Below are positions 25,299 through 47,074 of a DNA stretch of 64,000 nucleotides, in pieces. Position 1 is the stretch's first letter; each line of letters starts with the position of its first letter. The notes below the pieces were generated by a model that was not told the DNA's origin, did no database searches, and saw only the letters and a program-made list of their open reading frames with translations. This stretch comes from Candidatus Aenigmatarchaeota archaeon. GTDB taxonomy: Archaea; Aenigmatarchaeota; Aenigmatarchaeia; CG10238-14. The DNA is taken from positions 17,768-81,767 of the forward strand of contig JAFCCM010000012.1 in NCBI GenBank assembly GCA_017610225.1, in the 5' to 3' direction. The translations under genes were made by a program, and so were the position numbers.

Positions 25299-26732
25299 CT
25301 ATATCCTTACCACATATCCAGTCTTGTTCACAGCATCAGCAGTACCATTAGGAGTTATAACCCAAATTAATTTATTCGGGAGAAGCTTCCGTGGTATTTC
25401 ATTAATGTTTTCAGTGTAACCATCTGTAAAAGCAAGGCACACATCACAACATAATTCTTTTGCTCTTTTAAGACCAGGATATAATGTTGTTCCACCTCGA
25501 CCTTTAATGTCGAATTGGATGTCTCGAAGTTTCTTTACAGCATATTCTTTCTCAACTACGGCATCAACTTCAAGAACTGTTGTATAACAATGTCTATCTT
25601 TTTCGATTATATTCTTAACGCCTGACAATCCTTCTAAAATATCATCAGACGACATACTACCAGACGTATCAATCAAAACACAAATATCAAATGTCATGTC
25701 TCGAGTCTTACCCGGAAATGGAGATATTTGAGGAACATTCTTGTTGTCCTTCAATAGAAAAGTATATGTTCTCTTTCGATTTATTTTTGTAGGGGAACGT
25801 CTGAATTTACTGAATCGTGTACCCCTTACAAGTTTTCTGATTATCTGATAGTAAGGTGCCTTTGGTGGTGCTAAAGCACTTTGTATTAATTGTGAAATGT
25901 GTGATGGAATCGACCCTCGATCTTTATTAAAACTTTTCACAGATTCTTTAACAATGTTCGAAATGTGTTGATCAATTTTTCTGGATAATGCACTTAAATC
26001 GGGAACACCTTTTGTTCCATTAATCCAATCCCTATGAGTATCAAGTCCACCATGTGCAGGACACCCTTCGGCACCAAAACCAGGGCATGAGTTATCTTCT
26101 GATTGATCAGATTTTCCTTCGCCCTGACCTTTACCCTGACCTTCTTCTTTTCCTTCGCCTTTTCCATCACCATCACATTTATCACCATCCTGATTGTTAT
26201 TTTTTGGACAGCTTTTACACATTTGTTGTATTAACTGTTGTATAGTTTCATCATGATTTTGAAGTAAGTGTAGATAATATTCTTCTGTTACCTTTCCTTC
26301 CTCCATATCATATGTTGCAGGCAATTGGGGTGGCCACGCTTTCCCTGCAACAATTATAGGTTCTCTTATATTGGCTTGAACATTAACTGAACAATCAGCA
26401 GCAATATTCCAAGCCTGGATTTTTAAAGCTTTTCTATCGTTGATAGTCTCATTTGCTAATATTCTTAACAAACGTGTGATATGCTTATTTAATAAATGCA
26501 TACCCTCATGTTCAATGATTTTATATATTTCTTTATCATCTGTTGCCATAAAGAGATCAGGTTCATATAATAATGTTATTGTTCCGTCAGGTTGAGGAGC
26601 AACACCCATAATAGAACCAAAGTTCTTTGCAGGTTTTCTTCTGACTCTTGAAAACAGATATCCCCAGTAATTATACTTCAATACGAATCTTGCAATTAAT
26701 TGTTTTAATCTATCTCCGGCATTCTGTTCCAT
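25299..26732 (-). CDS. Putative metallopeptidase/VWA protein (DUF2201 type)
   Basis: 477 residues. The N-terminal half has EHEGMHLLNKH (zinc motif His75-Glu-Gly-Met-His79). A low-complexity Gly/Lys/Glu linker follows (KGEGKEEGQGKGQGEGK), then a Cys/His cluster. The C-terminal half is a VWA fold with MIDAS motif DTSGSMS near 350 and FTDGYTEN. This combination is DUF2201, which normally pairs with a MoxR-type ATPase, exactly the gene directly upstream. The pair is thought to act as a chaperone or remodelling module; the phage target is unknown. Confidence 0.85.
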   Translation of the reverse strand: MEQNAGDRLKQLIARFVLKYNYWGYLFSRVRRKPAKNFGSIMGVAPQPDGTITLLYEPDLFMATDDKEIYKIIEHEGMHLLNKHITRLLRILANETINDRKALKIQAWNIAADCSVNVQANIREPIIVAGKAWPPQLPATYDMEEGKVTEEYYLHLLQNHDETIQQLIQQMCKSCPKNNNQDGDKCDGDGKGEGKEEGQGKGQGEGKSDQSEDNSCPGFGAEGCPAHGGLDTHRDWINGTKGVPDLSALSRKIDQHISNIVKESVKSFNKDRGSIPSHISQLIQSALAPPKAPYYQIIRKLVRGTRFSKFRRSPTKINRKRTYTFLLKDNKNVPQISPFPGKTRDMTFDICVLIDTSGSMSSDDILEGLSGVKNIIEKDRHCYTTVLEVDAVVEKEYAVKKLRDIQFDIKGRGGTTLYPGLKRAKELCCDVCLAFTDGYTENINEIPRKLLPNKLIWVITPNGTADAVNKTGYVVRI

Positions 26733-26741
26733 AGCAACTCC

Positions 26742-28007
26742 TTATAAAGAACCTTCGCCAGCCTGCACAACTGGATCATAGAAATTTTTCTTATATGACT
26801 TTGAACTCTTCAACAATACCATGTGAATTTTTGTCATATACATAAATGCTGGCGATGACCTATCAAAAGAATCAATCTGCGAAATAAATAACGCCGCAGT
26901 ATCAATTGGCATAATCAATAGAAAATCAAGCACGTTTTTCAATTTCTTATCATCATATTTAGGCATTGTTGTTGTCATATATGTGCAAAACCCAACCATC
27001 AATTCACTCAATTTTGAGTTATCATTGTCTTTCAACAATTTATTAATTTCAGGTTTAACAGCGCGGAAATTATGAAATACATCTTTTGGGTTAATGTCTT
27101 TCTTATCCCTTGCAAATTCAATGAATAATCGAGTCATGTGGGTATTTAAAAGACCTGATGCCTTGACTTCGATTTCAGCAAAGTCAATTGTTTTTCTTCG
27201 CATTTCCATTTTCCACAGAATATCTGAAAGTTTTTCATAACTTGCAGGGTTGGCATAAACTGATCCCAACTTTTGAGATTGAAAATCATATAGATATTCA
27301 GGATGAGTTTGAATAAACTCAACAATGTATGGATGAAAATCATGTTCAATTGCATAGTTCAAAAAGTCTACTGCACTAACTTCTGTATAAACATGAAGCT
27401 GCCGTCTAAGTCCTGCGGCATCCTCAAGGTTATCCATAGAATACTCAGAATCATCAGGGTTGTCAATTGATATAACAAACCATCCTTTTGGAAAGGGATA
27501 CCGATGAACTGAGTATTCATCTTGGATTTGCCACAATAACTGTTGTAATTGATGGTCTCCACGTGAAAATTCATCAATAACAAATATTCCATATGTATCT
27601 TCATATTTCGGAACGAAGTCCGAATATAACATTTTGAATGAAAATTGTTCATCCCCTTCAACTTCAACTGGGAATGGAATAATAAAATCGTCCCTTGAAA
27701 GAACAGGGGACTTAACCATAATACAACCGAAATCTTTTATATTGTCCGGATTCTTTTTGTTATGGCTACCAAACATTTCTTCCTGTAATTCATTTGCGAT
27801 TTGGTAGCAGATTTGAGTTTTACCAACTCCCGCTGGTCCGATGATGTGGTAACATTGTCTGACAACATCTCGCCCCAAATTCCATGTGGCGACTGTGTCC
27901 ATGATATCATTTTTGATTAAGCTTTTAATTTTATCAATTGATAAAACAGAGATATTTAAACGTTCGTGATATTTTAATTCAGCATCTTTTGTATTTTCAT
28001 CAGCCAT
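26742..28007 (-). CDS. MoxR-family AAA+ ATPase
   Basis: 421 residues. Walker A GPAGVGKT is at 57-64, Walker B IFVIDEFSRGD near 144, sensor region VISIDNPDDSEYSM, and an Arg-rich DAAGLRRQLHVY segment. The size and the VWA partner nine bases downstream fit the MoxR/RavA-like group, which uses ATP to remodel or load cofactor into protein partners. It is upstream in the same operon. Confidence 0.88.
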   Translation of the reverse strand: MADENTKDAELKYHERLNISVLSIDKIKSLIKNDIMDTVATWNLGRDVVRQCYHIIGPAGVGKTQICYQIANELQEEMFGSHNKKNPDNIKDFGCIMVKSPVLSRDDFIIPFPVEVEGDEQFSFKMLYSDFVPKYEDTYGIFVIDEFSRGDHQLQQLLWQIQDEYSVHRYPFPKGWFVISIDNPDDSEYSMDNLEDAAGLRRQLHVYTEVSAVDFLNYAIEHDFHPYIVEFIQTHPEYLYDFQSQKLGSVYANPASYEKLSDILWKMEMRRKTIDFAEIEVKASGLLNTHMTRLFIEFARDKKDINPKDVFHNFRAVKPEINKLLKDNDNSKLSELMVGFCTYMTTTMPKYDDKKLKNVLDFLLIMPIDTAALFISQIDSFDRSSPAFMYMTKIHMVLLKSSKSYKKNFYDPVVQAGEGSL

Positions 28008-29677: not shown

Positions 29678-29747
29678 CACATGTGGCTGTCGACTAATAA
29701 TATTATTCAATAATTCGAATAACAGTATTGCCAACAGCCACTATGTG
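29678..29747 (-). terminator. Bulged long hairpin, probable terminator
   Basis: CACAT-GTGGCTGT pairs with ACAGCCAC-(T)-ATGTG, leaving one bulged base, around an AT-rich interior with smaller pairings. On the minus strand it is followed by an A-rich stretch and TTTTTTGTT. It sits between the small gene at 29759-29929 and the gene at 29047. Confidence 0.5.
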
Positions 29748-29758
29748 ACAGGACGGTA

Positions 29759-29929
29759 CTATTCATTCATATCATATTCTCCATACTTATACCTTAAAGC
29801 TTTTGGAACACTTATACCACAAATAACTGCAATCTTAATTAATACAGCTGGAGTAGTATGTCGTAAAAAATCTTCGATCCTACGCCTCAGCTTTCTGGTT
29901 TGTTTTTCAAGAAGATCAGATTCAGTCAC
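29759..29929 (-). CDS. Small basic helical protein
   Basis: 56 residues with a GTG start at 29929 preceded by AAGGAG, found by hand-translation. The charged N-terminal helix (LLEKQTRKLRRRIEDFLR) is followed by a short hydrophobic stretch and a segment (CGISVPKALRYKYGEY) that resembles a helix-turn-helix. It follows the ARPP-1-like gene by ten bases. Possibly a small regulator; unknown. Confidence 0.6.
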   Translation of the reverse strand: MTESDLLEKQTRKLRRRIEDFLRHTTPAVLIKIAVICGISVPKALRYKYGEYDMNE

Positions 29930-29939
29930 ATTATACTCC

Positions 29940-30908
29940 TTATAATACTAATGATAAATAAACTGGAGTATTGTTTTGCTGAATCAAATCTCCGCCACCG
30001 CCAGATGTTGTTTCTAACATAGTTGTCCTGAGTGAGTCATCAGTACTCATTATTCCTTGAGCTTTAATATCAATTGACTCCAATATTGGAAGAATCTCTG
30101 ATCTTAAATGCTGACCAAAATCTTCTAACGTTTTCTTGACAACCTCTGCTGACGCACCTTTAGGAATCTCAGGTAATATCAATGCAGTTTCCTGAAGTTT
30201 TCCAAGCATTTTTAATCGGAGCATTTCAGCTCCATAACAACCACGAAGCAGAAGCTTCCAATAAGCTTCCCAATGTTCACTTGAGGGCATTATTTCAATA
30301 CCGACAGGAACTCCAGAAAACATAATGATGGCACCTATTTGCCCGTCAACAGGTTCAAATTCTGCTGCAAACTGTTCAAGAGCATCTTTGATTTCTGGTG
30401 TATCATAGAAATACCTAAGATGAGCAGCGTTTCTTTTTACTGAAAGAGGCAATCCACTCAACCATGTTTTGATTGATCCCCAAAGTTTGCTGTAACTATT
30501 CGCTTGTCGTAACGATGGATTTACTAATGCTTTTCGCAGGGCAATTGGTAGAATATCTTCTTCGTTTTTATCACCACGAAGATATCCTCCTTGCTCTTGT
30601 TCAATACAACATGCAGTATCAAAACTACCACTTGCATTTGCCTGAATAACTCCAGAACCTGCCATTGCATGATCCTGACCTGCTTTTCCTCGTACCATCA
30701 TATTGGATGGAACAATTGCTGGCATTCCTATATCATCATTATCAAATACCATTGTTCCATAATCCGAGGTAGTTCTGAACTTCAAATGTTCAGGTCCTGC
30801 TATTTCCCCTCTGCTATCTCCAAGTATCGGAACGACGGTCATCTCATTGACTGATTGTACGTTGCCAATTTCTATGCCAGTGAACTTCAACTTATTAAAA
30901 ATGTTCAT
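29940..30908 (-). CDS. ARPP-1-like protein
   Basis: 322 residues. The N-terminal half resembles the ARPP-1 domain: a VPSNMMVRGKAGQDHAM segment and ASGSFDTACCIEQEQGGYL, matching the N-x-G-x-x-x-x-Q and C-x-E-Q-G signatures I associate with that family. The rest is helical, ending in a Gly-rich tail. It follows the TROVE/VWA gene by 14 bases and is probably in one operon with the upstream structured RNAs. Its biochemical role is not established; I infer a role in the RNP module. Confidence 0.58.
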   Translation of the reverse strand: MNIFNKLKFTGIEIGNVQSVNEMTVVPILGDSRGEIAGPEHLKFRTTSDYGTMVFDNDDIGMPAIVPSNMMVRGKAGQDHAMAGSGVIQANASGSFDTACCIEQEQGGYLRGDKNEEDILPIALRKALVNPSLRQANSYSKLWGSIKTWLSGLPLSVKRNAAHLRYFYDTPEIKDALEQFAAEFEPVDGQIGAIIMFSGVPVGIEIMPSSEHWEAYWKLLLRGCYGAEMLRLKMLGKLQETALILPEIPKGASAEVVKKTLEDFGQHLRSEILPILESIDIKAQGIMSTDDSLRTTMLETTSGGGGDLIQQNNTPVYLSLVL

Positions 30909-30922
30909 AATTTAATGACCTC

Positions 30923-32443
30923 CTATCCGAGTAATGTTTGATATTTTTGAACTAACAATGACTTGACCATATCACGATTTTGTAACATTCGATTAAAAAT
31001 AATCTCAGTTTCCAAAAATCTATAATCGGTCAATGGCATTGCATCAACCCCTTCTACCAAACTACGAGTTGTACCGCTTTTTGCATCTGCTGAAAATACT
31101 GGATTTAAATGAAGAAGGTTAAATTTCGCACCTTCACTTTTAAAGTGTTTATAGGTATGTTCAAACATACCTTTTATTTCATTTTCATATCCGTCAGACA
31201 CGACCACGATATTTTCAACCCCTGTTTGAATAGCATCAACAAGTCCGCTCCACAAATTAGTTGCACCATTTGGAACCAACACATTGACTTTGCTTTTGGT
31301 TGGAGTTTCTACAACTTTACCGCCTATGTAAAAGACATCCTTGATATTGTCCAATGCCGATACTAAACATAGTGATGTGATAAATGGATGCAATGGACGC
31401 TGTTCACTTCCTATCATTGATTTTGATGCATCAATGATAACAACACATTCTCCTATGGTGAGACGTTTCTGTCTACCGCTTACTACAACGATAGCTTCTT
31501 CTATCTCATCCATATTATCAGATTCATCGTTTAGAAGTTTATAGTAGAAAGATTTCCATAGATCATACAAGTCCTGTTTCTGATAATCGACTTTGAATGA
31601 TGTTGCTCCACTTTTCTTGGCTGCGCTTTCCAGCTGAATCTTTTCACGATCAGTCATCTTTGCAGTTGAATATATTTCTGAAATATCAATATCAACTCCA
31701 TAAGTATTACGAAATCCCATAACTGTTCGCTGAGGCATACCCTTCATATATTTTCTAAATGAAGTAGTAAGACCTGATTGCGCTGCTTGTCTTAAAGACC
31801 AATAGTTATCAATCTTTGGAAAATATGTTGAGAGTCCTTCACGACGAGGTTCTTTATCAAAGATGTGACAAAATACAGGATATGATTCCATATTGTATCT
31901 TCCAATCCACTTTGAGAAAAGTTTCATGTCACCATTCAATATTTTGAATAAGTCCTGTTTACCTAATGCATGTCGTACAAGGGTTTTCAATTTTCCTTTA
32001 TAGTTTACTGCCAGTCCATCAAGATCTCTGGAATCACGGTCGAAGATAAAACTCAATATAAGTTTTCTTGTTCTTGCATTATTAACTCTATTAAATCCTT
32101 CTGCACCTGTTAGCATTAAAAGATTTTTTAATGCTCTTGGGATACGCTCTTTTGACAGATTGTAAAGAATGACTTTCGATTCATAATCAAAGGAAAGACC
32201 ATCAACAGCAGGAAGATTACTTGAAGGTACAGGATTACCAAGTAACATATGTGTCATTGCACCTTTCGAAAAACCTGTTCCTTTAAGAAGAGTTATTAAA
32301 CAGAATAGCGTTCTATCATAATTGAATAAATCGCTCCACATTTGAACTACACGGCTAAATTGTTCGTCTGCATCCTCATAATATGCGCCTTTTGGTACGT
32401 ATTGAAGAATCCCTGAGTCAATTTTGGTTTTGCTTAAATCCAT
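30923..32443 (-). CDS. TROVE/Ro-like protein with VWA domain
   Basis: 506 residues. The first ~300 residues are repeated helices (KERIPRALKNLLMLTGAEGF, NARTRKLILSFIF, NYKGKLKTLVRHALG, FRKYMKGMPQRTVMGFRNTY) resembling the HEAT-like TROVE ring of Ro60/Rsr proteins. The C-terminal part is a VWA fold with MIDAS DASKSMIG near 336 and later VVSDGYEN. Ro proteins bind the ends of misfolded RNAs and Y RNAs. The four tRNA-like or stem-loop RNAs directly upstream independently support this. The TROVE match is by eye; a generic VWA protein is the alternative. Confidence 0.65.
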   Translation of the reverse strand: MDLSKTKIDSGILQYVPKGAYYEDADEQFSRVVQMWSDLFNYDRTLFCLITLLKGTGFSKGAMTHMLLGNPVPSSNLPAVDGLSFDYESKVILYNLSKERIPRALKNLLMLTGAEGFNRVNNARTRKLILSFIFDRDSRDLDGLAVNYKGKLKTLVRHALGKQDLFKILNGDMKLFSKWIGRYNMESYPVFCHIFDKEPRREGLSTYFPKIDNYWSLRQAAQSGLTTSFRKYMKGMPQRTVMGFRNTYGVDIDISEIYSTAKMTDREKIQLESAAKKSGATSFKVDYQKQDLYDLWKSFYYKLLNDESDNMDEIEEAIVVVSGRQKRLTIGECVVIIDASKSMIGSEQRPLHPFITSLCLVSALDNIKDVFYIGGKVVETPTKSKVNVLVPNGATNLWSGLVDAIQTGVENIVVVSDGYENEIKGMFEHTYKHFKSEGAKFNLLHLNPVFSADAKSGTTRSLVEGVDAMPLTDYRFLETEIIFNRMLQNRDMVKSLLVQKYQTLLG

Positions 32444-32543
32444 TATTCGTTAGTCCTCCCTTATTAAATTTCATTCCAACGTAAGTAAAACATATCCAAT
32501 TTTTTAGTGTGAAAAATAAAAATCAATAATGCACCTCAAATAA

Positions 32544-32614
32544 TTGGGTGGACTAGTTATTAGTATAATTACAATAGTTATCTATTATAGTTACCTAACA
32601 CTAATCCACCCCAA
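32544..32614 (-). other. Hairpin with bulged G in the leader of the TROVE/VWA gene
   Basis: On the minus strand TTGG-(G)-GTGGA (32614-32605) pairs with TCCACCCAA (32552-32544), leaving one bulged G; a small AATAG/CTATT hairpin lies inside. The CCACCC arm can alternatively pair with GAGGTG just downstream. It lacks the ACTT loop of the four upstream RNAs. It could end the RNA cluster, or act as a leader structure on the protein mRNA. Confidence 0.45.
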
Positions 32615-32624
32615 GCTAAGGAGG

Positions 32625-32755
32625 TTTCTTGAAAGTGTAAATGTATTATGTTTGGGTGAAAAACAGGTATCGAAACCTGCTACCTATTGCTTTAAATGCA
32701 ATTGCTCTACCAAATGAGCTATTTTCAGAAAATACAAAAAGTCTTTCAAGAGAAA
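32625..32755 (-). ncRNA. Y-RNA-like RNA 4, enclosing a tRNA-like module
   Basis: 131 bases. Outer stem: TTTC-(TC)-TTGAAAG with CTTTCAAGAAA, the TC bulged. Then internal loop ACTTTTT opposite ATTTACA, and inner stem GTATT/AATAC. Inside is a cloverleaf-like unit: TGAAAA/TTTTCA, D-arm GCTC-ATTTGGTA-GAGC, anticodon-like arm ATTGC-ATTTAAA-GCAAT, and T-arm with TTTCGATA between CAGG and CCTG. The anticodon position reads UUA. The T-loop has one extra base, there is no CCA, and the module is embedded in extra stems, so a tRNA mimic fits better than a tRNA. Confidence 0.65.
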
Positions 32756-32760
32756 AATAG

Positions 32761-32820
32761 ATGGAGGAATATATGCAGTTGTTGATTTTAAAGTAATCTG
32801 AATCTGCATAAAGTCTCCAT
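32761..32820 (-). ncRNA. Y-RNA-like RNA 3, simple stem-loop
   Basis: 60 bases. Outer stem ATGGAG/CTCCAT, internal loop ACTTT opposite ATATTC, inner stem ATGCAG/CTGCAT, and a 25-base loop with no tRNA features. It repeats the architecture of the neighbouring RNAs while sharing almost no stem sequence, as expected for a structure-conserved family. Confidence 0.6.
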
Positions 32821-32836
32821 GAAATAAACATAGTGA

Positions 32837-32908
32837 AATAGAAGCTGTAAATGTAATTGTAGTTATTTTCTCCAAATGAAAAACAGAAATTACATTAAGT
32901 CTTCTATT
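32837..32908 (-). ncRNA. Y-RNA-like RNA 2, simple stem-loop
   Basis: 72 bases. Outer stem AATAGAAG/CTTCTATT (8 bp), internal loop ACTTA opposite TTACAG, inner stem ATGTAATT/AATTACAT (8 bp), 29-base loop. The junction GAAG-ACTT is identical to that of RNA 1. Confidence 0.62.
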
Positions 32909-32920
32909 AGAAATTTTGAA

Positions 32921-33029
32921 GCCCGAAGTGGAAATTGTATTATGTTGAGGGACTTGAACCCTATACGCTTGTTTATCATACAAGTGCTGAACCAATCAGC
33001 TATCAGAAAATACAAAAAGTCTTCTGGGC
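32921..33029 (-). ncRNA. Y-RNA-like RNA 1, enclosing a tRNA-like module
   Basis: 109 bases. Outer stem GCCC-(A)-GAAG with CTTCGGGC: a 4-bp helix, a single bulged A and a second helix, the same plan as the Ro-binding helix of Y RNAs. Then internal loop ACTTTTT opposite AATTTCCA, inner stem GTATT/AATAC, and a tRNA-like interior: D-arm GCTG-ATTGGTT-CAGC, anticodon-like arm CTTGT-ATGATAA-ACAAG (GAU at the anticodon), T-arm AGGG-TTCAAGT-CCCT. The bases where an acceptor stem should lie do not pair, so it is not a working tRNA. Bacterial YrlA RNAs are known tRNA mimics of this kind. Confidence 0.68.
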
Positions 33030-33090
33030 ATAAATGATAATAAAAAATGATATTGGAGTTGAATCCAAAATAGTTTTTGCCGATAATCAT

Positions 33091-33116
33091 TCATTCAGTT
33101 ATTAATATATATAGAC
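33091..33116 (-). promoter_or_regulatory. Recurrent phage promoter-like motif, copy A
   Basis: Minus strand reads CTATATATATTAAT, then AAC, then TGAATGA. Same motif at 43295-43320 and 47049-47074, always in a gap and oriented toward the next genes. This copy precedes the Y-RNA-like cluster by about 60 bases. Confidence 0.65.
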
Positions 33117-34023: not shown

Positions 34024-37000
34024 TTAATCCCTCGTCAACATTAATGATATAAAATATGAGTTTAATAAATCTCTTGCAGGTGATGTTTTTGGTTCACGAT
34101 ATTCGGCACCACCAGTTTTAATAATTTCTGCTAACATTTCTTCTTTTGTTATATAATCATCTGATAGTGGACCCATGAACTCTGCAAGCACGCTAGGACA
34201 GTTATAAGAAATGAATGAATAGGTATCAAGCTCTCCTAACCTCTGTCCTCCTTCACGCCTTTTACCAGCAGTAGGTTGTGCTGTTTTTCCTGTCATTGGT
34301 CCTGTTGAACGTCCGTATATTTTTGCATCGCCCATATGCTCCAACTTTGCTATATACATATAACCTACTGGAACAGCATGAGTAGTAGATGTATTATATT
34401 CAGGTAGTTTTAATTTATATGTTGATTTCAATCCAATAGATTTTAATGCATTTTCAATATCTTTATGACTTGGTGCTTTAAAAGGTGGAATAATAATTGG
34501 ATAGAATCCACTTTTCTTAATTTCAGCTATGAATTTAGTATATGCTGTTGCACTCAAACTTGATATATTCTTACCGAGTCTTTCTGTTGTTTCTTTATTT
34601 TTTGACTTATCTAAATGACCATATACTTTTTTAATTAAAGCAACAACTTGTGTTTTTGTTTTCAGAGTTGGAATGATTTTTCCAAGTTCTTTTGCTATTA
34701 GTCCACAATACATTTCATACAATTGCCCGATATTCATTCGACCTAATAACCCAAGAGGATTCAAAAGAATTTCAACACGGTCACCATTTGGCATTCTTGG
34801 CATCAATTCATCTTTTTCAATTATTGAAATGATACCCTTGTTTCCATAACGGTTGCAGAGTTTATCACTTACTTTAATATCTAACTCTTGTTCAATTTTA
34901 AATCGAATATAAACTCCCTTTATTGTTTCACCTTTATATGTAAATTTATCTTTTGGAAGTTTTGGATTTCGTTTGTTTGTCCTTGCAATGAGATCTTTTA
35001 ACATTGGAAATTTAGAATCACCAACATTAGAAAATATATCAATATCAACAATTCGACCACCCTGACTCTTTTTAATAAATTGACCTGAATGCATATCAGT
35101 AGTTTCATCTTCTTCAAAGCCAATAATATCTTCAACGTCTCCAAATGTCTTTCTTAATATTGGTTTTCCTTTTGCAATTGAATCGCCGACCTCTGCAATA
35201 TAAAGAAGTCTGTCATTTTCAGCAACTATAACTTCTTCTTCAATTCCATGAAGGGATGTTAGTTTTCCTTCTTTAGCAACACTCTCACTTATAACAGCAC
35301 CATCCTCAAAGTTATATCCTTTGTATGGCATTAAGGCAGCTAGTAATGGTCTACCTAATGCAATTGCACCATTAGACATACAAGCACCTTCTGCAATAAC
35401 TTGGTTTTCTTTGACTCTTTCATTCTTTTCAACAACAGGATTGAATACACTCAAGGTATTCTTTCCTGAACCAGAACGAAGATGTACAGGTGATATATCG
35501 ACCGTCTTAGACCCCTTAGAACCGCATTGAATCTTAATTGCATCCTTGGATATACTTAGTATCTTACCGTTGCATGGGGACCGCTTTACGAAGTTGTCAG
35601 ACAGAACGTCCGTAAGGATTGACTCGTATCCTGACTGTACAATAGGCGCTTGAGGATCCTTTAATGGAACCATCTGCTTTGCTTGATTTGCAAGCATTAT
35701 TATTCTAGCACCATCTACATTTTCAAGGAATGGCACCATTGATGTAGTCGTTGACAACATTCCTGATTTTTCGGTATTGGTTATATTTTTACTTGAGAAC
35801 ATGCCACGTGAAGATGAGATTAAAGCATCAATTGTTAGCTGTTGAGCAATACCAATATTATCACTTTCAGGAGTATCTAATGGATCAATATTTCCAAAAT
35901 AGCTTGGGTGAATATTACGAGCTATTGTTTGAATTGCTCTCTTATCAGGTATGCCGCCTACCTTTTGGCCAACAGGAGAAACTCGAGTCATAGTTGACAT
36001 CTCTTCAATTGGATTTGCGTATTCCATATCAACAACTAATTCTGTCATTAAGAAATCGCTTAATACTTTTGTTGATGGAATTTCAAATTGTGCTTGTTCA
36101 TTTCCTGATAATACTTGTTCTTTATACACTGTATATGCAGCAAGAATTTGTTTCTGTGTTAAATGAACCAATACTTCTGAATTTCTAATACGTTGATTTG
36201 ATAAATCATTACGTTCAATGACATATCCTTGTACAACTTTATCAGCCATATAGTTCATAATCAAATCAAGACTAGTTGGAAACTGTTGACTTTTCAATAC
36301 TTGCTTTGCAACAGGATCAACAATATTTTGTAAGTTTGAACTGATTAAGAATGTTGAGTTCATTCTTCCAGTTAGACTAATAATTAAATCTTCAAAGTAT
36401 TCTTTTGATGGAAATTCTTTTTCAATTGTATATTGTTCTGGTTTCCCATGTATAAAACCTACAACCATTTGCTCTTGAAGTTCAGTGTTTATATTTTTAA
36501 ATACACAATACTGCCCTTCTTTGATTTTAGCAAAATACTTTTCACCTGTTGGTTTTGTATCAACAATTTCATATTTTATTTTGTATTGGTTACATGTTTT
36601 TTCAAAACCAAAACTAAATGATAATAAGAAAAACAAAGGCATTTTATATGACATAAATGCTTCTAGATATTTAACACGTCTTAAACTTTTAACATAGATT
36701 CTAAATACAGAATATGAACTTTCGAATCGTGAATGTCCTGGTTTCGGAAACGTTATCGGATTCTGTACAATTTGATTAACAAGACATTTTTGTTTTCCAT
36801 TTAATCTAAAGACTCCTGTACTTGGATTAATACGTGGAAGTTCTAGTTTGATATTATGTACATTGCCAAATTGATCTTTCAATGTAACGGTTGCAATGTT
36901 AATATCTGATTTTAATATTTCTCCAGCTCGTCCTGGTTTATGAGAAATAGAAAATTTTTCAAACTTCAATGGAAGATCTTTTGATTCCAATACCTTAAAT

Positions 37001-38112
37001 GAACTAATCAAATCTTTTCTTAGATTTGTTTCAAAGTCTAACTGTCTTTTCTTAAATATATGTTTTGGAGCTTTTCCGTCAACCATCTTTACAGGATCGT
37101 ATGTTTTGATGGTTTCGTTTATTGCTAAACTTTCTGCTTTTGTAGGAGGAATTATATCCCCCGCTAATGTTGAACTGATTGCAGTTAAAGCTTTTGTTTT
37201 CCCTTTAGCTGGAATTTTCTTTGCAATAGCTGTAGCTCTGTTTATATCTCCACTAGTTCCATATAAAATAGAAGATGTTGCAATGGTTTTAATTTCATCT
37301 GCATTTGCATCACCAGAGACAATTTTTGTAACCTCATCAGGATCTTTTTGTAAGTATGTTTGGATTGCTCCTTTTATGCTAGCTACATTTTTTGAGTCAA
37401 TATTTTTATCGAGTACTTTCATTATAATTTTTGTAGCTTTATTTGTTTCTGTTTCTTGTTCTGTATCAGTCAGGACACCTTTTAAATTTCTTACATAATG
37501 AAGTACTCTTTGAAATGTAAATTCTCCATCCTTTACAAGAAGTCTATAATTTGATTTTCCATTAGTTACTGTATTCAATATCATATCATCAAATAGAAAA
37601 CTTCCATCTTTCATATCACGAACAATTGGAAATATCTTTCTATTGACAAATGTATTAACTTCTCTATTTAAATCTATAGAATATAAAAGAATTTTTTGAT
37701 AGTTGTCTGGGAACTGTGCAGTTGCTGTCTTTAAAATATTTTTTAATAGAAACCCAGCTCTTTGTCTGTAGTTGGTTGGTTTATGCATTACATCAATAGC
37801 ATTTGTGTATTGTGATAAATCAAGGATAACGTTTTTTCCTGGTGGGACTTTTTGGTTGGCTGCATATGGTATTAATTTTAAAGCACGATATGCTCTCACA
37901 AGATCAGGAGTCATTCTTGTTCTTGGAACTGTTGTCAATGGAACTGATACATTCTTAAAATCAATCTTCCTCAAATTCATTTTCGCATAATCTTCAATAA
38001 AATTTGAGTTCTCAGGAAAATATATTAAAAGAAACGGTTCTTTTATATCCTGTGGAAATCTAACTCCATCAACAATATGTGTATATTGTCTCCAATTTTT
38101 AAATTGAATCAT
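34024..38112 (-). CDS. Multisubunit RNA polymerase beta subunit, unsplit
   Basis: 1362 residues, full-length RpoB-like. Landmarks in order: NPSTGVFRLNGKQKCLVNQ, HPSYFGNIDPLDTPESDNIG near 730-750, MPYKGYNFEDGAVISES, RYGNKGIISIIEKDELMP near 1090 (the catalytic beta region), NPLGLLGRMNIGQLYE, and near 1280 RSTGPMTGKTAQPTAGKRR then GGQRLGELD. About 300 N-terminal residues are poorly conserved. Phages of the phiKZ/AR9 type usually split this subunit over two genes; here it is one. It transcribes phage genes with the beta' product of the gene three bases upstream. No alpha, omega or sigma gene is in the window. Confidence 0.97.
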   Translation of the reverse strand: MIQFKNWRQYTHIVDGVRFPQDIKEPFLLIYFPENSNFIEDYAKMNLRKIDFKNVSVPLTTVPRTRMTPDLVRAYRALKLIPYAANQKVPPGKNVILDLSQYTNAIDVMHKPTNYRQRAGFLLKNILKTATAQFPDNYQKILLYSIDLNREVNTFVNRKIFPIVRDMKDGSFLFDDMILNTVTNGKSNYRLLVKDGEFTFQRVLHYVRNLKGVLTDTEQETETNKATKIIMKVLDKNIDSKNVASIKGAIQTYLQKDPDEVTKIVSGDANADEIKTIATSSILYGTSGDINRATAIAKKIPAKGKTKALTAISSTLAGDIIPPTKAESLAINETIKTYDPVKMVDGKAPKHIFKKRQLDFETNLRKDLISSFKVLESKDLPLKFEKFSISHKPGRAGEILKSDINIATVTLKDQFGNVHNIKLELPRINPSTGVFRLNGKQKCLVNQIVQNPITFPKPGHSRFESSYSVFRIYVKSLRRVKYLEAFMSYKMPLFFLLSFSFGFEKTCNQYKIKYEIVDTKPTGEKYFAKIKEGQYCVFKNINTELQEQMVVGFIHGKPEQYTIEKEFPSKEYFEDLIISLTGRMNSTFLISSNLQNIVDPVAKQVLKSQQFPTSLDLIMNYMADKVVQGYVIERNDLSNQRIRNSEVLVHLTQKQILAAYTVYKEQVLSGNEQAQFEIPSTKVLSDFLMTELVVDMEYANPIEEMSTMTRVSPVGQKVGGIPDKRAIQTIARNIHPSYFGNIDPLDTPESDNIGIAQQLTIDALISSSRGMFSSKNITNTEKSGMLSTTTSMVPFLENVDGARIIMLANQAKQMVPLKDPQAPIVQSGYESILTDVLSDNFVKRSPCNGKILSISKDAIKIQCGSKGSKTVDISPVHLRSGSGKNTLSVFNPVVEKNERVKENQVIAEGACMSNGAIALGRPLLAALMPYKGYNFEDGAVISESVAKEGKLTSLHGIEEEVIVAENDRLLYIAEVGDSIAKGKPILRKTFGDVEDIIGFEEDETTDMHSGQFIKKSQGGRIVDIDIFSNVGDSKFPMLKDLIARTNKRNPKLPKDKFTYKGETIKGVYIRFKIEQELDIKVSDKLCNRYGNKGIISIIEKDELMPRMPNGDRVEILLNPLGLLGRMNIGQLYEMYCGLIAKELGKIIPTLKTKTQVVALIKKVYGHLDKSKNKETTERLGKNISSLSATAYTKFIAEIKKSGFYPIIIPPFKAPSHKDIENALKSIGLKSTYKLKLPEYNTSTTHAVPVGYMYIAKLEHMGDAKIYGRSTGPMTGKTAQPTAGKRREGGQRLGELDTYSFISYNCPSVLAEFMGPLSDDYITKEEMLAEIIKTGGAEYREPKTSPARDLLNSYFISLMLTRD

Positions 38113-38114
38113 TC

Positions 38115-41100
38115 TTATCTCCTACGTTTTTTAGTTTCAACCAATGTTCCTGTAAGGACTTTTTCAAGAATACTTGGGTCACCACCATCATCTGTAATGA
38201 GTCCAGTTTTTATAGCTTCGTTTACATTTTCGAATGCCAGTCCCTGGATAAAACTTGTTTTGAATACAATTTGTTTTATGTTAATCATTGTGGGATCCCA
38301 TTTCTGTCCAAGTCTTGCTGGAATGCTTTGATTCTTTTTATCTCTCAATGCTTGTGATAATAAGACTTCAAGGTGTACAGAATCCATATTTCTCAATGTT
38401 CCATAAACAGCAAACAGTTTTAAGAATAAATGATTTGCATCTTTATAGATTTCTCGACCACCTAATAAACGTCTTACATATTGAATTTGTGCTTTTGTAT
38501 CGTCAGTCTGTATTGGTATTTCTAATACAGTACTATTTGCTTCATATGATATCTTTGTAAATTCTTTTCCTACTTTTTCATCATTATATGTTTTTAGAAT
38601 GGCTGGATAATCTAATATAATATTAAAAATAGAATCATCATATTCAACCTTACATACTAATGCTTTAACAATAATTTCATTATCAATTTCATTATAAACT
38701 AAATCATCAGGTAAAGGATAATCTTCTTTATTTAAAGTCAGTACCATAGGACGTTTTGTAAATAATTCAGTATTATTCTGACCCAAATTTTTCATGATAT
38801 TTTCTTTTGTGGTTAATGGATCGTTTTGAATAATGTCATATCTGATATCTCTATCTTTAATCTTTACTGCTCCACCTGTATGGAATGATTTCATGATTGT
38901 TTGTGTACCTGCTTCTCCAACAAGCTGTGCTGCTAAAACTCCAACGTAAGGACTTTTGTGTCGTTTTAATAAATCACCATAACAAGTATGACATAATTTA
39001 GTAGACTCACATAATATAGGACTTCTTAAATTAACAACATCTCCAACTTTTGTTTTACCTGGATCAAATCTTTCAACAGAATTTCCATTTAGGATATATC
39101 TACCTGTGAATATTCCTTTCATTTCTTTTGTCATTCTGAAACTCAAATGACGTTTTGTTTTGCAATCTTTTAAACTCCTATCAATTTCAACAGTATTTAA
39201 AACATATGCAAGCTGGCGTGACATATAACCTGTATCAGCAGTATTTAAAACACGATCAATTATACCTTTTCTTGAACCAGATGCTGCTGTAAAATATTCT
39301 TTATTTGTTAGACCATCTGCAAACGAACCTTTAATTGCAGGAAGCACTTTTCCAGTTGGATCAGCAATCAATCCTTTTGCAACTAAAATTTGCATTGGTT
39401 GAGTCCATCCTTTTCCAGATCCAGATTGGACCAGATCATATAGTCCTGTACCCTTTAAATGTTCAACTAATAATTTTTCCATCTCTTCTAACAATACGGC
39501 AGCTTCTTCTGTTGTTGCACCATCTAACTTTTTCTTTAATTGTAGAATTGATGTTGGTAATTGAATATCATCTAATGTTATACTTGGTGAAGAAATTGTT
39601 GCAAATTTAAAACCTATTGTTTTCAATGCTGAGAATGTATTGATTGCTTGTTCACGCCCATACATTTCAAGAATTACAGGAATAAGACCATTTACAATTT
39701 TGCTATTAACTTCTTGATCAATAAAAGGATACGATAGTGGGAATGTACTATTGAATATTGCTTTTCCCATAGTTGTAGTTTTCCCACGATATTTAACAGG
39801 GATATATGGATCAGATGCATTTTGTAAATCTGTATTAGTAACAGAAATGGGTGGTGCTGTTCTTTTGACATTTTTTGTGATTGTATATAAACCAACACAC
39901 ATTTCTTTTGACAACTCAAATGTTACGGCAGTGGCAGAGTCTCCACTTTCTCCATTCATCATTTTACTTATAACTTCAGCTTGTGCTTCAGTTGTTATAG
40001 GATGATAAATTGCCATTGTGTCTCCATCAAAATCAGCATTGAATCCGCCTACTTGGAGAGTACATAATCGTACTGTATTTCCATCAACTAAAATTGGTTT
40101 GAATCCACGAACAGATTCAGGTCGAAGTGCAGGATCACGTTTTGCTAATACACTACGATTCATCATTGCTACTTCTGCCGCATCCCATATAATTTTATAT
40201 AACTCTGGTGGAAGAACATCTCCACTTCCTACAGCTTTAAATACAGATTTAATACTATCAATTGATAATTCTAATTCTGTATGCTTTGTTACAGCTGCTG
40301 CTAATTTTGCTTGATCTACTTGACCAGAATAAAACAACCGATGAATAATAAAAGGTTCAAACAAACTTATTGCTAACCTTAACGGGATACCAATCTCATT
40401 TACTTTTAAGTCTGGACCAGGCGTAATAACAGCGCGACCAGAAAAGTCTGTACGTTTGGCTAATAGACTTGAACGAATCAACCCATTCTTCTTTTGAATT
40501 AATTTACGAATGAATCCATCATGGGCAATTACTGCCTTTTGAAGTTCATAATTTAAAAGATCGAATAAAGGTCCTGATTTAGATGCACTCTTAATTTGAT
40601 ATGCTCGTCTAATTAAAGAAATGTAATGATCATTTATTGGATCGTATATCCACATTCCTTTCTCATCCTGATATGCATCACGTTGTTCGGGTGGAATGAC
40701 AGGAACTGTATCAATAAATAGATTGTTTTCTTTTATAGATTGTTTTATCTTTTTAATGAATTTATCTCTAGTTTCTGTCCCGCCTCTAAATTTTATCTTT
40801 GGTAGAATCTTAATAAACTCTGAAATGCCTGTTACTCCATCAGGGTCAGTAATCAATAATCCTTGTGAATTAACTTTATATGTTTCCTCAGTTGATAGGA
40901 ATTTTTCAATCTTTCTATCTAGCTGAAGTAATAACATATATGCTGATGGATGAATAACTAATGCATTTAGTTTAATATATGAAAATGTCTTTTTACGATC
41001 TGTAGACTCTTCTGGACCAAAAATAATTTCTGAAAACAACCCCTCAGGATGCCATTCGCCTGGCTTTGAGAAAAACTCTGTTGTAGTAACAGGAGTAAGT

Positions 41101-41138
41101 CCTTGTTTGAACTTTTTGATATCCAAAAATTGTATCAT
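38115..41138 (-). CDS. Multisubunit RNA polymerase beta' subunit, unsplit
   Basis: 1007 residues. LAKRTDFSGRAVITPGPDL, the metal-binding NADFDGD near 368 (three Asp), GSRKGIIDRVLNTADTGYMS (bridge-helix region), and VGEAGTQTIMKSFHTGGA near 745 (trigger loop) are all present. The N-terminal zinc ribbon of bacterial beta' is absent (GPEESTDRKK where cysteines would lie), while the second cysteine cluster (LCESTKLCHTC) is kept. It is shorter than bacterial RpoC (about 1400 residues) because insertions are missing. It is immediately upstream of beta. Confidence 0.97.
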   Translation of the reverse strand: MIQFLDIKKFKQGLTPVTTTEFFSKPGEWHPEGLFSEIIFGPEESTDRKKTFSYIKLNALVIHPSAYMLLLQLDRKIEKFLSTEETYKVNSQGLLITDPDGVTGISEFIKILPKIKFRGGTETRDKFIKKIKQSIKENNLFIDTVPVIPPEQRDAYQDEKGMWIYDPINDHYISLIRRAYQIKSASKSGPLFDLLNYELQKAVIAHDGFIRKLIQKKNGLIRSSLLAKRTDFSGRAVITPGPDLKVNEIGIPLRLAISLFEPFIIHRLFYSGQVDQAKLAAAVTKHTELELSIDSIKSVFKAVGSGDVLPPELYKIIWDAAEVAMMNRSVLAKRDPALRPESVRGFKPILVDGNTVRLCTLQVGGFNADFDGDTMAIYHPITTEAQAEVISKMMNGESGDSATAVTFELSKEMCVGLYTITKNVKRTAPPISVTNTDLQNASDPYIPVKYRGKTTTMGKAIFNSTFPLSYPFIDQEVNSKIVNGLIPVILEMYGREQAINTFSALKTIGFKFATISSPSITLDDIQLPTSILQLKKKLDGATTEEAAVLLEEMEKLLVEHLKGTGLYDLVQSGSGKGWTQPMQILVAKGLIADPTGKVLPAIKGSFADGLTNKEYFTAASGSRKGIIDRVLNTADTGYMSRQLAYVLNTVEIDRSLKDCKTKRHLSFRMTKEMKGIFTGRYILNGNSVERFDPGKTKVGDVVNLRSPILCESTKLCHTCYGDLLKRHKSPYVGVLAAQLVGEAGTQTIMKSFHTGGAVKIKDRDIRYDIIQNDPLTTKENIMKNLGQNNTELFTKRPMVLTLNKEDYPLPDDLVYNEIDNEIIVKALVCKVEYDDSIFNIILDYPAILKTYNDEKVGKEFTKISYEANSTVLEIPIQTDDTKAQIQYVRRLLGGREIYKDANHLFLKLFAVYGTLRNMDSVHLEVLLSQALRDKKNQSIPARLGQKWDPTMINIKQIVFKTSFIQGLAFENVNEAIKTGLITDDGGDPSILEKVLTGTLVETKKRRR

Positions 41139-43294: not shown

Positions 43295-43320
43295 CTATTC
43301 AATAATTAATATATATAGTT
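43295..43320 (-). promoter_or_regulatory. Recurrent phage promoter-like motif, copy B
   Basis: Minus strand CTATATATATTAAT, then TAT, then TGAATAG. Located 140 bases upstream of the TTG start of the 482-residue gene, ahead of its two leader hairpins. Confidence 0.68.
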
Positions 43321-43337
43321 GAGTATTGTATAATTGA

Positions 43338-44249
43338 TTATTTTTCAATGATATGTTTAAAGGGTTTCATAAAAAGTCTCTTTGATACAACAGTTGTCCC
43401 TGGTTGAGTAACAACATCCTGAGCACATCTATTTGCATGTCTTGCCGCATCCAATTCTTTTACTCCCATTGCAATACATACTGACATAACAGCAACAACT
43501 GTATCCCCTGCACCAGAAACATTATAAATTTCAACTGGTTCCGCAGGGATGCGCCAATAATAATCACCTCCAGATTTAATCAATGTCATTCCATCTTTTC
43601 CCTTTGTTACAAGAAAGAATTGAACATCAGTTAGTATATATGAAGAAGAAACTTGCATAGTATCCCATTCTTTTTCATTTGGGGTCATCATATAAACACC
43701 ATTATACATATAAGCATTAATGGGTTTTGGATCAACAATTATTTTTACATTTTTTGATTTTAAATAAACCATCAAGTCTTCTGTGATCATACCTTTTGCA
43801 TAATCCGAAATGACAATCATATCATAATCATTAATGTTTATACTTTCAAGTCTTTTGATAGCTGATTCAGCTTTAACAGGTCTAATTGTTTCCCGATCTA
43901 TTCTCAACATTTGAACTTGTCTTTGATCTGAAATGATTCTTTCTTTGGCTATTGTTTGATAAGAACCCATTAATATTAGATTGGTATTTACTCCAATGTG
44001 ATTAAGTTCATCCAAAACTTTTTTACCATCACGGTCACCTCCAATTGAAGCTAGGCAATCAACCGTTGCGCCTAGTTCTCTTATGTTTCTTGCAACATTA
44101 CCACACCCTCCAAGAGTATGATATTCCTCAGAAACATTAACAATAGGAACTGGTGCTTCAGGTGAAATTCTTGATACATCTCCAACAACATATTTGTCAA
44201 GCATGATATCGCCAACAACTAAAATTCTAACATCCTCTGGGGTTTTCAT
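43338..44249 (-). CDS. HldE/RfaE domain I-like heptose-phosphate kinase (PfkB family)
   Basis: 303 residues, ribokinase fold. RILVVGDIMLDKYVVGDVSR and SPEAPVPIVNVSEE are typical of the D-glycero-beta-D-manno-heptose 7-phosphate kinase domain; GGCGNVARN is the substrate motif, MTPNEKEW follows, and VSGAGDTVVAV is the catalytic GAGD motif. The adenylyltransferase domain of bacterial HldE is absent. It would act on precursors of the LPS inner core. A terminator precedes it and promoter motif B follows its stop, so it is probably its own unit. Confidence 0.9.
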   Translation of the reverse strand: MKTPEDVRILVVGDIMLDKYVVGDVSRISPEAPVPIVNVSEEYHTLGGCGNVARNIRELGATVDCLASIGGDRDGKKVLDELNHIGVNTNLILMGSYQTIAKERIISDQRQVQMLRIDRETIRPVKAESAIKRLESININDYDMIVISDYAKGMITEDLMVYLKSKNVKIIVDPKPINAYMYNGVYMMTPNEKEWDTMQVSSSYILTDVQFFLVTKGKDGMTLIKSGGDYYWRIPAEPVEIYNVSGAGDTVVAVMSVCIAMGVKELDAARHANRCAQDVVTQPGTTVVSKRLFMKPFKHIIEK

Positions 44250-47048: not shown

Positions 47049-47074
47049 TTATTCACTAATTAATATATATAGAT
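47049..47074 (-). promoter_or_regulatory. Recurrent phage promoter-like motif, copy C
   Basis: Minus strand CTATATATATTAAT, then TAG, then TGAATAA, about 70 bases upstream of the lipoprotein start. Confidence 0.68.

Follow-up and report, generated by a model that had tools for sequence, protein, structure and literature searches.

A phage locus joining a predicted Ro-fold protein, an array of Y-RNA-like RNAs and an ARPP-1 protein: a likely Ro ribonucleoprotein

What a phage would gain from keeping a Ro60-like protein, a series of small RNAs that partly resemble tRNAs and an ARPP-1 protein side by side is the question raised by a locus on the minus strand of a 64,000-nucleotide (nt) stretch of viral DNA, referred to here as the window (taken from an 81,767-nt virus record, in which it spans 17768-81767). 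The original prediction had pointed to four tandem structured RNAs upstream of a gene for a 506-amino acid (aa) protein and an ARPP-1 gene, and had read the whole as a Ro/Y-RNA-like ribonucleoprotein module. This arrangement was confirmed and the reading found support: the protein is predicted to adopt the Ro fold, the RNAs share a base that covaries in a group of close relatives, the RNA array, the Ro-like gene and the ARPP-1 gene are linked in a fixed way, and the RNAs carry tRNA-like heads in both normal and circularly permuted order. We consider it likely that the locus encodes a phage Ro ribonucleoprotein, in which a Ro-like ring would bind the base of the RNAs and the variable heads would capture enzymes acting on tRNA.

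In its predicted fold, the 506-aa protein joins a ring-type helical domain to a VWA domain, as Ro60 and Rsr do. Residues D338, S340, S342, T356 and D417, which match the DxSxS..T..D pattern of VWA domains and which we take to be its metal ion-dependent adhesion site (MIDAS), are invariant in 29 members; among 18 diverse members the same holds for all of them except T356. As for the RNAs, the four units of the window present the same base, made of an outer stem that closes with a G, a loop on the 5' side starting with ACU, an inner stem and a UUCUG or UUCAG strand, the 3' loop being 5-6 nt long. Their minimum free energy (MFE) folds agree with this base (z-scores from -2.8 to -4.6), in line with the shared outer stem, ACTT(T)-type loop and inner stem described at the outset. 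RNAs 1 and 4 do enclose the two tRNA-like modules that had likewise been proposed: RNA 1 (MFE -28.9) has D, anticodon and T arms without a separate acceptor stem and matches part of the Rfam tRNA model (8-63, 31.3 bits), and RNA 4 matches the full model (47.7 bits) and is called 'tRNA-Stop' (anticodon tta) by ARAGORN, both scores exceeding the gathering score.

Relatives of the locus made it possible to examine this base comparatively. A profile scan gave nine viral loci, eight of them distinct (L003-L007 and L009-L011; L008 was left out, its upstream region being identical to that of L007), which together with the window form a close group of nine. The Ro-like proteins of the eight relatives show 52-73% identity, and the nine arrays contain 48 units (window, 4; L003, 4; L004, 5; L005, 5; L006, whose record begins within the array, 5; L007, 6; L009, 5; L010, 8; L011, 6). 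A caller that combines stems and motifs, with a threshold score of 26, found 48 units in the 7,640 nt of the nine arrays, more than chance would give: the remaining 326,382 nt, searched on both strands, held 70, and 20 shuffled versions of the arrays gave 1.35 on average and three at most. A stem caller blind to sequence separated real from shuffled arrays far less well (56 units, with 23-26 in each of three shuffles), but ACT started 34 of its 56 loops, against one across the three shuffles.

When 24 units with short heads were given to RNAalifold, it returned 14 pairs identical to the 14 named beforehand, in two helices flanking an asymmetric loop, and all 14 showed changes on both sides with pairing kept, the covariation that the original prediction had expected of related phages. 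Under this structure 92.3% of the cells pair, compared with 68.9% in shuffles (none of 500 as high) and 38-50% in slid structures, and the covariation score is 0.772 against 0.298, figures that are biased upward by the choice of the 24 units according to their pairing. The mean outer stem fell from 6.98 to 4.33 base pairs (bp) when the 3' strands of 45 units were swapped (46 had been called and one low scorer excluded), with maxima of 4.88 bp in 1000 swaps and of 4.80 bp when swapping was kept within an array. The covariance-model search suggested with the prediction was carried out with a model, R1, built from the same 24 units: over 178,325 bases it gave 54 matches at E up to 10, of which 47 (23 outside the training set) were array units on the expected strand at E up to 0.33, the best non-unit match being the antisense of window unit 2 (E 0.49). 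RNA 1 scored E 0.0054, and RNA 4 E 0.33 in this multi-locus scan or 0.004 on the window's record alone. The base, that is, the outer stem, ACU loop, inner stem and UUCWG strand, is shared and covarying in the close group.

The gene order of the close group, taken from open reading frame (ORF) calls, runs from a gene in the place of the RNA polymerase beta gene, through proteins of ~200 and ~86 aa, to the noncoding array, the Ro-like gene and ARPP-1, followed by proteins of ~190-215 and ~318 aa and by two of ~406-442 aa; the window's counterparts of these last two are an AAA ATPase and a VWA protein. The gene in the beta place is a single ORF of 1198-1361 aa in L003, L004, L005, L007 and L010, and is fragmented in L009 and L011.

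The linkage extends to much more distant phages. A tblastn search of INPHARED with the window's Ro-like protein had a sole phage match, the uncultured LR756500 (L002; 462 kb, 26% identity), and three Ro queries found there no other relatives of these proteins. In L002 the ARPP-1 gene directly follows the Ro-like gene, and an RNA at L002:3299-3429 shows an 11-bp outer stem, an 11-bp inner stem, the sequence ACAGA and a head that ARAGORN calls as a tRNA-Leu (taa; L002:3325-3400). A profile including the LR756500 protein gave 26 loci at first and 12 new ones after repeats had been removed; left out were L021 and L026 (same contig as L002, Ro-like protein 100% identical), L031, L032, L039 and L041 (judged by tblastn figures equal to those of L030, L027 and L040 rather than base by base), and L012-L020 and L043-L051 (contigs already counted). 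The distant Ro-like proteins (11 of the 12 new ones plus L002) are 20-26% identical to that of the window. ARPP-1 follows the Ro-like gene in all 12 new loci (11 by phmmer, L027 by tblastn) and thus in 22 of 22 loci overall (nine close, L002 and 12 distant), each of which also has at least one called core unit and a tRNA-like element upstream of the Ro-like gene. Stem-loop units occur in the distant upstream regions too, their loop reading (A/G)C(T/G) and their strand ..CAG or ..TAG. The stem-plus-motif caller found 31 in 9,771 nt, compared with 131 on both strands of the other 331,297 nt and, in 20 shuffles, 2.60 on average and five at most, and the outer stem averages 7.05 bp with its own pairs and at most 3.93 bp in 500 swaps (41 units, low scorers included).

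The heads were surveyed in 81 units, 48 close and 33 distant (30 with a score of at least 26 and three lower ones kept by eye). A T-arm was recognised by pattern in 40 of them; the pattern misses RNA 4 of the window. For 15 of these T-arms, six or all seven of the next seven bases can pair with a stretch 3-13 nt further on, forming a closed acceptor hairpin, and in 10 of these the pairing is complete. Shuffled tails gave means of 2.46 and 0.14, respectively (maxima 8 and 3 in 2000 runs), and the counts were 1 and 0 among 32 T-arms found outside the arrays whose normal acceptor is perfect. Two candidates, L006:539 (7/7) and L030:5661, were dropped as their MFE folds show a normal acceptor, leaving 13 closed-acceptor units in nine loci, 10 of them with NCCA after the acceptor strand (counting one, in L010, where it lies one base later). 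According to their folds, the head opens between acceptor and D arm in L003:5421, L006:253 and L010:4776, between D and anticodon arm in L038:4620, L038:4777 and L011:5506 (where no D arm is clear); in L034:4448, L035:2663, L038:3913, L038:4428 and L040:4261 the opening falls between anticodon and T arm. The 13 also include L038:4202 and L037:5655, the latter with an ambiguous fold. L038, where a single array carries both normal-order and permuted heads, contains units that match the Rfam YrlA model (RF02553) at E 2.7e-6 and 2.1e-5, both below the gathering score; the former, L038:4202, is a full-length match with 37.3 bits against a gathering score of 69. As we read its alignment, the order of that model is T arm, closed acceptor, D arm, and the structure of a bacterial Y RNA superposes on tRNA with a circular permutation (PMC11472068), so that permutation in a Y RNA is already known; several different permutations beside normal-order heads in one family, and in L038 even in one array, were not found in the openly licensed literature searched. 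Other departures from tRNA include the absence of a separate acceptor stem from the fold of units of L007, L009 and L011, as in RNA 1, and stop-reading anticodons in the window (RNA 4) and in L036 (tca). Since the tRNA-Leu call of L002 lies inside a Y-like RNA, odd tRNAs annotated automatically next to the Ro-like genes of huge phages may be mimics.

How these components might work together can be outlined by analogy with Y RNAs, which Ro60 and Rsr bind on their outer surface, their channel taking up RNA ends. The predicted Ro60-fold ring would likely dock on the stem-loop base shared by the neighbouring RNAs, which would be the Ro-binding site, the array presumably being transcribed as separate RNAs. 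The variable heads, about half of them tRNA mimics, would catch enzymes that cut, process or modify tRNA, whether of host or phage, and this catching might serve as a decoy, as a tether or in repair. Among known parallels, a Y RNA tethers Rsr to PNPase in Deinococcus, and a role as competitive inhibitor of an anticodon nuclease has been suggested for the tRNA-like domain of YrlA (PMC7790460). A role for the 322-aa ARPP-1 protein is the least supported part of this explanation. Its family assignment is plain: it matches PF20208 with 77.3 bits (gathering cut-off 27, E 1.7e-21), as do all 16 members scanned (this one among them), in which the invariant residues include Q18, Q78, H80, C101 and E185. 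According to the paper defining the ARPP families, a Cys and a Gln are absolutely conserved, ribose moieties may be what the proteins act on, and ARG, HIRAN, WYL and a deacetylase are neighbours (PMC9503650). Given the invariant Cys and Gln, ARPP-1 is proposed to act on ribose or ADP-ribose groups of the RNAs held by the particle. Its predicted model (10 sequences, predicted local distance difference test 86.7) had no credible match in the PDB. A term search of the main text of the ARPP paper found no mention of TROVE, Ro60 or Y RNA, and no paper in the openly licensed literature searched has 'ARPP-1' and 'TROVE' together. As a separate observation, Pfam ARPP-2 gives matches as well in 11 of these 16 proteins (best E 4.8e-14), so the two families may be related.

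Several results weigh against the Ro ribonucleoprotein reading. The TROVE-VWA label first given to the gene stands for the predicted ring and the VWA domain and fails at the level of sequence, with no match to Pfam TROVE (PF05731) in any member of two sets scanned, of 29 and 18 proteins, and no profile match to the Ro chains of the PDB; membership thus rests on the predicted fold, and the protein is Ro-like by that fold, not a PF05731 member. The Rfam YrlA model finds nothing in the window array (E up to 5), in the whole record (E up to 10) or in L003, L006, L010, L011 and L034 (E up to 1). The vertebrate Y RNA helix has 7 bp and a single bulged C with a 3-nt bulge opposite (PMC4726728); RNA 1 does have one bulged A in its outer stem, as had been noted, and such a single-base bulge occurs in only three of 46 called units, so that this likeness is not general. 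In the distant group, R1 finds no unit in L002 and L021 and only one weak match in 14 sources (E 0.9, on a called unit of L028), L029, L030 and L042 have one unit each above the caller threshold, and the caller was written after the distant regions had been read. The core common to both groups is for these reasons a reading, tested less firmly than that of the close group.

The features of the locus are collected in the table below.

Features of the module and its surroundings (window coordinates)
Feature	Position	Strand	Remarks
Small basic protein, 56 aa	29759-29929	minus	next after ARPP-1 gene
ARPP-1 protein, 322 aa	29940-30908	minus	
Ro60/Rsr-like protein, 506 aa	30923-32443	minus	predicted helical ring domain and VWA domain with intact MIDAS
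P2 promoter-like motif, AATTGGATAT-N7-TTACGTTG	32477-32501	minus	before Ro-like gene
Fifth, different long hairpin without shared core	32543-32613	minus	between RNA 4 and Ro-like gene; MFE -32.5, z -6.9
RNA 4	32625-32753	minus	shared base, tRNA-like head in normal order; MFE z -4.0
RNA 3	32761-32820	minus	shared base, small hairpin head; R1 training unit; MFE z -4.55
RNA 2	32836-32909	minus	shared base, small hairpin head; R1 training unit; MFE z -4.5
RNA 1	32921-33029	minus	shared base (one bulged A in outer stem, loop ACUUU) followed by UUCUGA and a tRNA-like head
P1 promoter-like motif, TCTATATATATTAATAACTGA	33095-33115	minus	exact match, upstream of RNA array
RNA polymerase beta subunit gene	34024-38112	same as module	just upstream; NF001616, E 1.6e-101
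RNA polymerase beta prime subunit gene	38115-41138	same as module	upstream; TIGR02386, E 9.1e-87

A promoter-like motif had been proposed at 33091-33116; it corresponds to P1, whose core recurs upstream of the first RNA in all nine close loci. With up to three mismatches there are three P1 sites in the window (0.01 expected), the two further copies, on the minus strand at 43299-43319 (three mismatches) and 47053-47073 (two mismatches), preceding a 482-aa and a 188-aa gene; these sites are probably a class of phage promoters. P2 has a single match in the window with up to three mismatches (0.21 expected), and a looser pattern precedes the Ro-like gene in seven of nine close loci (not in L003 and L010). 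A homologue of the 56-aa protein follows ARPP-1 in eight of nine close loci (it is missing in L004); a scan of 12 distant loci found no homologue. Both RNA polymerase matches, the two large subunits of a multi-subunit enzyme, lie under NCBI's curated cut-offs. Long hairpins without the core also occur in the arrays of some relatives (L007:5749-5815, L009:5741-5816, L010:5188-5244), and another, at 29680-29760, lies 3' of the small-protein gene; similar ones in relatives, read by eye, several with CACATAGTGG- or CTTTTAGT-like stretches and often followed by a T-run, occupy the same place, and it may be a terminator or a further RNA of the module. Further downstream, 25299-28007 encodes the AAA ATPase and the VWA protein, which is metallopeptidase-like, and close loci have two proteins of similar size there. 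Elsewhere, 43338-44249 encodes a phage sugar kinase like HldE domain I (TIGR02198, E 3e-78, under the curated cut-off), and protein P0051 has a partial relative (61% identity) labelled as coming from a Thermoplasmata archaeon metagenome-assembled genome, either a binning error or a clue to the host.

Other explanations of the same locus have to be considered. A possible, if doubtful, one is a degradation machine of the kind known for the Deinococcus Rsr, in which a Y RNA tethers the ring to PNPase (PMC7790460): the RNAs would join a 3'-5' exonuclease to the ring and gate the ring's channel, the nuclease would receive structured RNAs (rRNA, tRNA, host mRNA), and likeness to tRNA would serve folding or stability only. 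That 41 of the 81 units have no T-arm by pattern (one of them, RNA 4, being tRNA-like by Rfam) would fit. Against this, it is ARPP-1 that is conserved as partner, the scan of nine neighbouring window proteins recognised no exonuclease, and the intact, varied and permuted tRNA heads would be left unexplained. In a more far-reaching reading, an anti-defence particle, which we regard as unlikely, one Ro ring species would hold swappable tRNA decoys for anticodon nucleases and other tRNA-cutting defences, mounted on the same handle at the acceptor end or at the acceptor/D, D/anticodon or anticodon/T junction, so that each would hide one face of the tRNA and show the others to nucleases, and ARPP-1 would chemically treat the damaged or ADP-ribosylated ribose ends collected.

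An array lying directly upstream on the same strand, as in the close group, might be a cis-acting leader through which the Ro-like protein regulates itself by binding stems in its own mRNA; this is improbable, given that P2 separates array and gene in seven of nine close loci, that one to three called ORFs intervene in L034, L038 and L040, that the best unit of L002 ends ~1.4 kb upstream with other ORFs between, and that as many as eight units, their heads diverse, are more than a leader would require. More improbable still are working tRNA genes in hairpin-rich spacers, with the stems as processing signals: several elements are called tRNAs by ARAGORN and Rfam and some keep the acceptor stem and CCA, yet some lack a separate acceptor stem, 13 have it closed into a hairpin, two would read stop codons, and heads unlike tRNA sit on the same base. 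Repeated hairpins are common in AT-rich phage spacers, and the units could be selfish or structural repeats, such as repetitive extragenic palindrome-like elements, with no role for the Ro-like protein. This we find hardly tenable: the units share one orientation and one spot near one gene in 22 of 22 loci, their compensatory changes are specific to the units and their loop sequences conserved, and the many copies to be expected elsewhere in the genome are missing, R1 finding only the four window units in the 81,767-nt record.

Read as a phage Ro ribonucleoprotein, the module bears on the question of what bacteria and phages gain from Ro60 and from Y RNAs that mimic tRNA. This phage lineage offers it in compact, conserved form, adjoining in the window the phage's own RNA polymerase genes, and with many natural head variants on a base that stays constant, some of them tRNAs whose permutation falls at different junctions, a series that lets one ask which face of tRNA the heads must present. 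It also ties Ro ribonucleoproteins, for the first time in the literature searched, to ARPP-1, an orphan among the enzymes predicted for conflict systems. Phage proteins with a Ro fold were already known, namely those of Thermus phage phiLo (PDB 9l5y) and Listeria phage CKA15 (Rsr) and the TROVE proteins of crAss001, whose gene is early (PMC8375218), and of some jumbo phages (PMC7824862); PDB entry 9kop is titled only 'Trove domain'. In CKA15, three highly transcribed regions, with RNAs of unknown kind, lie up to 2 kb upstream of the Rsr-like gene (PMC12282133). Unlike the present case, the passages cited describe neither a link to ARPP-1 nor a covarying RNA array, and the published ARPP-1 neighbourhoods listed above differ from the Ro-like gene and RNA array found here, the PF20208 match and the invariant Cys and Gln being shared.

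Among cellular systems, the Rsr/Y RNA locus of Deinococcus radiodurans and the Salmonella rsr-yrlBA-rtcBA locus likewise place the gene of a Ro-fold protein beside small RNAs with a terminal stem, some with a tRNA-like head. As in bacterial Y RNAs, the units lie near a Ro gene (in 22 of 22 loci, including the four with intervening ORFs), their 5' and 3' ends pair in a stem with an asymmetric loop (close group), and at least one RNA has a tRNA-like domain (RNAs 1 and 4 in the window). The differences are that the partner is ARPP-1 and the scan of the neighbours recognised neither RtcB nor RtcA, that a locus may have up to eight RNAs, and that the protein falls outside Pfam TROVE and the window RNAs outside Rfam YrlA by sequence. 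YrlA (RF02553; structure 6CU1) shares the tRNA-like head in circularly permuted form (PMC11472068), whereas here a single family presents such heads in the normal order and in several permutations.

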